The position numbers and the translations under genes were made by a program. Shown here piece by piece: positions 42,817-43,979 of a stretch of DNA of 64,000 nucleotides (within the stretch, counting starts at the first letter, position 1; every line of letters starts with the position of its first letter). The notes under the pieces are model-generated. The model saw only the letters and a list, made by a program, of their open reading frames with translations. It did no database searches and had not been told where the DNA came from. Source of the stretch: Halogeometricum limi (GTDB lineage: Archaea > Halobacteriota > Halobacteria > Halobacteriales > Haloferacaceae). The stretch covers positions 62,001-126,000 of the forward strand of contig NZ_FOYS01000002.1 in assembly GCF_900115785.1 (NCBI RefSeq). Direction: 5' to 3'.

Positions 42817-42891
42817 GGGCGCTTAGCTCAGTCTGGACAGAGTGCTTGGCTTCGGACCAAGTTGCCACGGGTTCAAATCCTGTAGCGCCCA
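42817..42891 (+). tRNA. trnR: tRNA-Arg (anticodon TCG)
   Basis: A complete 75-nt cloverleaf without intron. The acceptor stem is GGGCGCT/AGCGCCC, the D-arm contains TTAGCTCAGTCTGGACAGAG, the anticodon stem-loop is CTTGG-CTTCGGA-CCAAG giving anticodon TCG (arginine codon CGA), and the T-arm is GGGTTCAAATCC. No CCA is encoded. The 3' end is duplicated 104 bp downstream. Confidence 0.93.
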
Positions 42892-42926
42892 TGATTCTTC
42901 CGCGAACAACGTGAGCGGAGAATCAT
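42891..42926. terminator. Hairpin downstream of tRNA-Arg
   Basis: ATGATTCTTCCGC at 42891-42903 pairs with GCGGAGAATCAT at 42915-42926 with one bulge. Position directly after the tRNA suggests a terminator or processing signal, or part of an inserted element. Confidence 0.45.
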
Positions 42927-42973
42927 CTACCGCGAGGGATTTGAATCAGGGAGCGAACGCAGTGAGCGACCGA

Positions 42974-42996
42974 GGTTCAAATCCTGTCGCGCCCAT
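42974..42996 (+). repeat. Second copy of the tRNA-Arg 3' end
   Basis: These 23 bases match the tRNA 3' end plus next base (42870-42892) with a single mismatch (C for A at the start of the acceptor strand). A direct repeat of a tRNA 3' end is what integration of an element by a tyrosine recombinase leaves behind. Only about 81 bp separate the two copies, with no integrase gene, so it is a remnant or a small repeat unit. Confidence 0.65.
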
Positions 42997-43027
42997 CTCT
43001 CGCCCGAGACCGACGTACTCTCTTCTC

Positions 43028-43945
43028 TCACACCCACTCCCGCAACCGCCCCAGATGAAACTCCACCGCCGCCGCTCCTTCCAGTTCCGGATACCGCGGC
43101 CGGGTCACGACGCCGCCCGAGTCCACCGCCGAGCGAACGACGGCGACGACCCGATACACGTCGGACACGTCGGGATACGTCCGAACGGAGTCGTACCCCC
43201 GTTCGAACGCCGCCCGCAACCGTTCGTCCTCGACGTACCAGTCGGCCACTAGGTGCTCCGCTTTCGCCACCGACAGTCCCGCCGCCGCCGCCAACGGCGC
43301 GCCCCAGTCGAGAACCGCCGCGACGCCCTCGCCGTCGTACACGGCGTTGCCGGGGCGAAAGTCCCACGGGTAGAGTCGCGGCGTCGGCGTCGCCGGGAGG
43401 TCGGCGTCGCGAACGCACCGCCGGAGTTCCTCGCGGACGCCGTCGAACGCGGCCGGAAGCGCGTCGATACCGGCCTCCGCGTGCGACCCGAACCACGCCG
43501 GCCACGAGGGGTTCGCCGCCCGGAGTTCGTCGCCGTCGCGGCGAACCGGACCGTACCGCTCGAACGCGAACGTCTCGTGGAGTTCGGCGAGATACCGACC
43601 GAACCGTTCGGCGAGGCGTCGTCGCGTCTCGTCGTCCACGACGGCGAATCGCTCGTGTAAGTCCTCGCCCGTCACCAGTTCGACGACGGCGTACGTGCGG
43701 CCGTCGAACTCCCCCGTCGTGAGCACTTCGGGCGTCGGCACCGACGTTCGCTCGCGGACGGCGCGCGCGAGGGCGAGTTCGGTCTCGAACGCCTCCCGGT
43801 CGGCAGACGACTGGACGACGACGCCCGACCCGTCGGCGAAGTGGACGAGGGTGGTGTCTTTCGAGTTCCCTCGACGGGCCGCCACCGCGGACGCGACGCG
43901 CTTGTTCGGGAACTCCCGGGCGACGACGGCCGTCACCTCGTCCAC
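43028..43945 (-). CDS. APH-family phosphotransferase
   Basis: A 305-residue kinase-like protein of the aminoglycoside/choline/fructosamine phosphotransferase type. The catalytic region is PRLYPWDFRPGNAVYDGEGVAAVLDWGAP: the usual His before the Asp is a Trp here, but the Asp and Asn are kept, and DWG replaces DFG. The N-terminal lobe has VVVQSSADREAFETELALARAV and TYAVVELVTGEDL. The start is set at GTG 43945, just after the HAD gene. The substrate is unknown. Confidence 0.75.
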   Translation of the reverse strand: MDEVTAVVAREFPNKRVASAVAARRGNSKDTTLVHFADGSGVVVQSSADREAFETELALARAVRERTSVPTPEVLTTGEFDGRTYAVVELVTGEDLHERFAVVDDETRRRLAERFGRYLAELHETFAFERYGPVRRDGDELRAANPSWPAWFGSHAEAGIDALPAAFDGVREELRRCVRDADLPATPTPRLYPWDFRPGNAVYDGEGVAAVLDWGAPLAAAAGLSVAKAEHLVADWYVEDERLRAAFERGYDSVRTYPDVSDVYRVVAVVRSAVDSGGVVTRPRYPELEGAAAVEFHLGRLREWV

Positions 43946-43979
43946 GTCGGCGCACCTCCGGCCGAGCGGTTCGGGGGGG

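Follow-up and report, generated by a model that had tools for sequence, protein, structure and literature searches.

A class-wide hairpin repeat of Halobacteria that ends in the tail of the upstream tRNA

The tRNA-Arg(TCG) locus of Halogeometricum limi

The window analyzed is the whole 64,000-nucleotide stretch of contig NZ_FOYS01000002.1 (positions 62,001 to 126,000), and the features described here lie on its plus strand unless stated otherwise. The gene for tRNA-Arg(TCG) occupies positions 42817..42891, as identified by ARAGORN and by Rfam (RF00005, 64.3 bits). Between its 3' end and the native flank lies a 104-bp unit (42892..42995), which was delimited by extraction and by a precise empty site in a congener. 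The unit opens with hairpin H1 (42892..42925, apical sequence GAACAACGTGAG), located by folding, and continues with a second hairpin, H2 (42931..42991), composed of an inverted T-loop, a tandem-GA core, and a copy of the T-loop. The fold that yielded these two hairpins had a z of -4.5, with equal stability reached in 0 of 200 shuffles; covariance model R1 assigned H2 81.4 bits, this sequence being one of the model's own 21 rows. The left arm of H2 is the inverted T-loop (antiT, GGATTTGAATC, 42937..42947), which was located by pattern. The 26-nt core (AGGGAGCGAACGCAGTGAGCGACCGA, 42948..42973), supported by covariation and by GA retention across the genus, reads GG GA GC GA AC GCA GT GA GC GA CC, i.e. 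Watson–Crick dinucleotides alternating with GA/GA steps, with a three-base loop. The unit closes with a copy of tRNA nt 53–73 at 42975..42995, recognized by sequence and by edge mapping, which has one mismatch (nt 66, A>C) to the stretch copied (42871..42891) and whose first part forms the right arm of H2, paired with the inverted T-loop. The limits of the copied stretch, the 5' edge of the T-loop and the discriminator base, come from sequence and from edge mapping of 143 copies in five congeneric genomes.

The original prediction had described a repeat of the tRNA-Arg 3' end 104 bp downstream, and positions 42870-42892 and 42974-42996 indeed differ at 1 of 23 bases. The strong hairpin it had placed between the copies, at 42891-42926, was recovered by folding as H1 at 42892-42925, and its inverted T-arm fragment, given as about 42936-42946, was found one base away at 42937-42947. 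What had been missed is that the two pieces, inverted and direct, pair as the arms of a single hairpin that encloses the tandem-GA core. This inverted/direct T-loop arrangement occurs once in the 64-kb window and in 0 of 100 dinucleotide shuffles.

An Rfam search of the locus returned the tRNA itself and a sub-threshold match to C0465 (E 0.068), which was taken as chance, and nothing else; the 104-bp unit had no match in plasmid and phage collections. On the minus strand, a long ORF (42927-43955) terminates within the hairpin (RWARQDLNLGRSLRSLPDSNPSR). Protein tails of this sort in haloarchaea probably reflect misannotation caused by tRNA-tail units.

A family of units, each carrying the tail of its own tRNA

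When more copies were sought in the genome, as had been proposed, the 180-bp locus matched 14 places, almost every one of them immediately 3' of another tRNA gene. ARAGORN found 48 tRNA loci in the 3.6-Mb genome, of which one false intron-bearing Val was dropped, and the 250 nt downstream of each of the remaining 47 were compared with all 47 tRNA ends. With a score threshold of 13, at least one copy of the own tail was called at 25 of the 47 loci. Summed over the loci, own tRNA ends scored 661, against a permuted mean of 394 (S.D. 13) and a maximum of 456 in 10,000 permutations, and own inverted ends scored 384 against 336 (S.D. 8, maximum 369). Each copy is thus specific to its own tRNA, and a random match, raised earlier as an alternative, is contradicted both by the first of these scores and by the dinucleotide shuffles of the window.

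The order within a unit is hairpin H1, inverted T-loop, tandem-GA hairpin, and then the copy of nt 53–73 of the upstream tRNA; a T-rich start directly follows both the tRNA and the copies. Full-length R1 matches lay no more than 1 kb downstream of a same-strand tRNA in 21 of 24 cases in this genome (G000), 23 of 26 in G113, and 9 of 14 in G138. Most of the exceptions are tRNAs missed by the RF00005 list, displaced tails, or opposite-strand readings: two of the three in this genome are the intron-bearing tRNA-Trp and one is a tRNA-Pro tail; those of G113 are tRNA-Trp, tRNA-Pro, and a tail displaced by 3.7 kb; and those of G138 comprise one tRNA-Trp, one sequence that is not a unit, and three that by their coordinates lie opposite a unit on the tRNA strand. 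With the tail removed, 164 of 167 unit bodies matched another unit, the best match lying behind the same tRNA in another species for 91, behind the same tRNA in the same genome for 36, and behind a different tRNA for 37 (25 in another genome and 12 in the same genome). The units therefore belong to a single family that is propagated mainly by inheritance and tandem duplication, transfer from one tRNA to another being older or rare. Units of a second kind were also seen, in which the copy is confined to the acceptor part and the GA hairpin lies on the opposite strand (e.g. Arg(CCG), Ala(CGC), and Arg(CCT); L005, L022, L290, L298, and others).

Edges and turnover were examined at 199 tRNA loci from five congeneric genomes (47, 35, 40, 39, and 38 loci). 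A first copy was present at 107 of these loci, a second at 52, a third at 9, and a fourth at 1; orthologous tRNAs of the five species carry from zero to four units, including tandem arrays. Identity of the 143 copies to their own tRNA rose from 0.36 at nt 50 through 0.50 at nt 51 and 0.70 at nt 52 to 0.89 at nt 53, was 0.92–1.00 over nt 60–72 and 0.88 at nt 73, and fell to 0.59 one base further. Because identity drops outside nt 53 and 73, these are the limits of the copy, namely the 5' edge of the T-loop and the discriminator base. CCA followed 1 of 169 copies, and an origin of the copies from mature tRNA was rejected on this ground.

Presence and absence of units at identical sites is precise, as compared between congeneric species rather than strains and with gain and loss not distinguished. 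For Arg(TCG), the sequence directly after the tRNA in G002 matches the tail that follows one unit in G004 with a score of 58 of 60; for Met(CAT), G002 is filled and G003 and G004 are empty, precisely at the tRNA 3' end. Among pairs of filled and emptier loci, 53 of 259 tails exceeded the 99% point of the background (15.5), the pairs not being independent and some tails being themselves pieces of units. The original prediction had named, as evidence against itself, an arrangement conserved in all relatives and lacking any inserted element. The relatives bear out the second half of that picture, in that no element lies between the copies, but not the first, the arrangement being present, absent, or multiplied according to species.

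Copies also follow their tRNA. First copies are nearer to the tRNA than second ones (identity 0.917 versus 0.873; 58 of 107 versus 17 of 52 perfect). Eleven loci with a lineage-specific tRNA change in nt 53–73 were listed and one, whose copy has no T-loop, was left out; at 9 of the 10 evaluable loci the change was seen in the first copy. The exception was Leu(TAG) of this genome, where the copy did not follow.

For H2, 191 distinct cores were compared, picked by their outer arms and not by the positions tested for covariation. Paired dinucleotides were found at 157 of the 185 steps examined, as GC/GC (61), GT/AC (25), AC/GT (22), AG/CT (18), and GG/CC (16). In the 21-row alignment, 6 of 17 pairs change on both sides, with a score of 0.210 versus 0.100 and 0 of 500 shuffles reaching it. 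Of 65 cores taken from tRNA loci of the genus, most but not all of them fetched without the hairpin pattern, 47 retain GA on both sides. G-T pairs outnumbered A-C mismatches in the genus by 57 to 26, or by 30 to 26 when one position was omitted; since the G-T excess comes mainly from that position, the inference as to which strand folds relies mostly on the GA pairs. Palindrome repair coupled to replication would convert GA/GA into GA/TC, so that the retained GA/GA steps point to selection on the folded tRNA-sense strand. H1 regions are less regular within the genus, with a median z of -1.56 versus -0.63 behind tRNAs without a copy.

Taxonomic spread, integrated elements, and known repeats

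Model R1, a covariance model built from 21 hairpins with the 26-nt core, matched 114 of 116 Halobacteria genomes, with matches in 46 of 46 genera of the class. Fifty-two genomes matched in a phylum-wide sample of 294: 51 of about 53 Halobacteria and, with one weak match (E 5e-4), one among about 241 others, these counts being approximate because the split into Halobacteria and others was inferred from listing order. Within the family, the inverted/direct T-loop pattern was present in 37 of 60 genomes, and the reversed pattern had 0 matches in all 60. In GTDB contigs the pattern was found in at least 120 stretches, with haloarchaea named in 70 of the 80 titles shown. Among the 120 stretches listed, 104 had a same-strand tRNA within 400 nt upstream; over 108 of the matches listed, the own acceptor scored 9.44 of 11, against a permuted mean of 3.89 and a maximum of 4.22 in 200 permutations. 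The 16 listed stretches with no near tRNA comprised 7 cut near an end, 5 bacterial, 2 beside integrases, and 2 haloarchaeal (L155 and L161). A non-haloarchaeal match in Candidatus Woesearchaeota (L096) lies 42 nt behind a predicted intron-bearing tRNA-Ser and may be due to chance.

Searches of viral contigs gave 9 + 1 matching stretches. One tailed-virus contig (L371:13744-14011) carries tRNA-Glu(TTC) followed by a true unit array of the family, at a place that may be viral sequence or the border of a provirus. Another (L362) holds a single unrelated match that is not a unit, and eight prophage-like contigs (L363-L370) hold palindromes of another kind, which were set aside as a different phenomenon. 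The long arms of these palindromes resemble a tRNA 3' end (gcggggcat-GGATTTGAACC ... GGTTCAAATCC-atgccccgc), and we take them to be perhaps of a Bifidobacterium type (compare L106 and L109). G138 also contains dispersed palindromes of larger size (L429-L432) that lack tRNA sequence and are tipped by the same tandem-GA core, and several dozen core-only matches were found in that genome.

Integrated elements occupy some of the same tRNAs. In G113, a 3.7-kb element encoding a Phage_integrase protein (tyrosine recombinase) lies between tRNA-Lys(CTT) and its array (L433, G113:C1:111000-117000). In the present genome, an array lies some 31 kb away from tRNA-Pro, following an integrase gene and a short tail of tRNA-Pro; this tRNA-Pro (G000:C8:402814-402886) appears to harbor an integrated element of roughly 31 kb that has a Phage_integrase-like gene (L434, G000:C8:371000-390500), the displaced array lying at the far end of the element. 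Five further loci show the order integrase, att block, unit. The att blocks of these seven elements, as we read them, start at about nt 38, 44, 53, 54, 58, 62, and 62, and in all seven the units lie outside the element, after attR, the array having been pushed away from the tRNA. Thus genuine att duplications, with variable starts, occur next to the units and are distinct from them. All tyrosine recombinases found belonged to such separate integrated elements. Like the units, tRNA-directed integrative elements with Phage_integrase directly duplicate a tRNA 3' end, and partial tRNAs arising from integration are described in one report (PMC9897764); the unit differs from these elements in its lack of genes, fixed 53–73 block, conserved hairpin, and tandem arrays.

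The closest known arrangement is that of the repeats downstream of E. coli tyrT/tyrV (RttR/rtT RNA, tpr), which are tandem and each end in the 3' end of their own tRNA. Three AATCCTTCCCCCACCACCA copies lie there at 159, 337, and 515 nt, with a spacing of 178. In E. coli the copy begins within the 3' portion of the T-loop and takes in the encoded CCA, whereas the haloarchaeal copy spans nt 53–73; in haloarchaea, moreover, many tRNAs per genome carry units. R1 did not match the E. coli repeats, nor was a comparable inverted T-loop found in them (the best scored 8 of 14), and the Rfam RtT family (RF00391) was absent from this genome and, among 14 control genomes, present in E. coli only.

Within haloarchaea, the nearest comparison is with the SMR, PATEs, and MITEs of Haloquadratum walsbyi, likewise short, non-coding, and palindromic; the paper on them describes non-coding palindromic repeats of about 110 bp with strong target preference, as well as "repeat-mediated deletion" between short direct repeats (PMC3119063). 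As far as described there, the targets of those repeats are IS605-type elements, and the repeats either possess terminal inverted repeats or lack a target duplication, whereas tRNA-tail units are placed downstream of tRNA genes and contain the tail of the tRNA. Presence or absence at identical sites in close relatives, a mark of mobility in such repeats, is seen for the units between congeneric species. Terminal inverted repeats are absent from the unit, which has a T-rich start, a tRNA-tail end, and an internal inverted T-loop. Integron attC sites are structured hairpins conserved by fold more than by sequence, and integron cassettes offer a comparison of working principle, being arrays of units that each end in a structured hairpin. 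The tRNA-tail unit differs in having no ORF and in a site sequence that varies from tRNA to tRNA. An archaeal integron paper contains neither "Halobact..." nor "tRNA" in its accessible text (PMC9668308). No printed description of tRNA-tail hairpin repeats was found in a search confined to open-licence literature.

Origin and maintenance of the units

The anatomy of the units, their specificity for the own tRNA, their edges at nt 53 and 73, the covarying core, the arrays, the precise presence and absence, and the tracking of tRNA changes are observations, and the evidence for anatomy, specificity, and precise turnover is strong. We favor, with moderate confidence, the explanation that the feature is one unit of a Halobacteria-wide family of short, palindromic, non-coding tRNA-tail repeats, lost and multiplied by recombination between tails and kept as a folded single strand. 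Units would be lost, and arrays would grow and shrink, through recombination between the 21-bp direct repeats formed by the tRNA tail and the unit tail. An exchange over these 21 bp always leaves a complete tRNA, so that the locus tolerates it, and it may also keep tRNA tail and copy alike. The reason for keeping H2 would be that the tRNA-sense strand folds, either as single-stranded DNA or as read-through RNA, and then serves as the binding site or substrate of a putative factor. That the copy is bounded by the T-loop's 5' edge and by the mature 3' end suggests strand exchange within this loop as the route by which new units arrive. This exchange might resemble that of tRNA-directed tyrosine recombinases, with a putative enzyme and occasional passage to another tRNA; a T-loop of 7 nt suits the overlap of tyrosine recombinases. 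Most units look as if they descended vertically or arose by tandem duplication, so that no recent jump from one tRNA to another was caught. Ordinary repeat-mediated deletion would suffice for precise loss, and empty sites are therefore no proof of insertion. No recombinase tied to the units was found, and in the seven integrase elements beside arrays the att blocks do not regularly start from nt 53.

A bolder form, which we regard as improbable, is a cargo-less integron-like system in which any tRNA could serve as a platform, with the T-loop as exchange site, the folded H2 as a partner recognized by shape with arms matched to the tRNA, and a tyrosine recombinase that excises and inserts the units in trans. 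Less improbable, though still unlikely in our view, is a functional RNA element in the tRNA trailer, selected for termination, insulation, 3' processing, or quality control, with repeats and losses incidental. The covarying structure of the units with GA pairs retained on the tRNA-sense strand, their presence, mostly by vertical descent, in nearly all Halobacteria sampled, and the T-rich start right behind tRNA and copies would all suit such an element. Units are missing, however, behind about half of a genome's tRNAs and at orthologous tRNAs of sister species, and the exact 53–73 copy and the requirement for the own tRNA are left unaccounted for; the T-run behind the tRNA would, in addition, be expected to end many transcripts before the hairpins.

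Three further accounts fare much worse. The original prediction had offered an att-site remnant or a small mobile repeat that uses tRNA ends, of which the latter comes close to the data. Integration does leave a direct copy of the tRNA 3' end and an intact tRNA, as seen here, and such elements sit at tRNAs of the clade; yet the 104 bp between the direct copies at Arg(TCG) consist of hairpins only, congeners having the same or no unit, the conserved-core unit recurs class-wide behind many different tRNAs, and the seven real elements, with att blocks of varying start, have units outside them. A simple remnant of one integrated element was accordingly rejected and is most improbable. A staggered insertion with 21-bp target duplication by a Cas1/casposase-like enzyme, giving CRISPR-like arrays at tRNA ends, would match the order tail-body-tail-body-tail and a preference of casposases for tRNA 3' ends, but the Methanosarcina mazei casposon has a 14-bp target-site duplication that overlaps the tRNA gene by its last 4 bp only (both from PMC6977970), while the repeat here is 21 nt and wholly inside the tRNA, and the bodies are related hairpins instead of varied spacers; we give this account scarcely any credence. 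Under the tandem-inversion duplication (TID) model, snap-back synthesis of the tRNA tail would have produced a local micro-duplication separately at each tRNA, in keeping with the direct/inverted/direct T-loop order and the hairpins at both turning points. The inverted copy ends in the T-arm, however (the adjacent complement of the acceptor scores 4.64 of 10 for the own tRNA versus 4.17 for others), and bodies behind different tRNAs are homologous, which is not expected from separate local events; the model, very unlikely on these grounds, was rejected for the absence of the acceptor part from the inverted copy.

The tRNA-tail hairpin repeat is real, class-wide, and apparently undescribed. A structured repeat tied to tRNA genes, found in almost every genome sampled from a single archaeal class and with copies that follow changes in the tail of the tRNA, bears on the evolution of tRNA 3' ends and on the true nature of att sites and "tRNA fragments" in haloarchaeal annotation, and may account for short spurious ORF ends and partial tRNA matches behind tRNA genes. 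It possibly bears on a single-strand recombination route as well. If the integron-like reading were true, units would pass between cells and occasionally between tRNAs, overwriting the 3' end of the tRNA each time.
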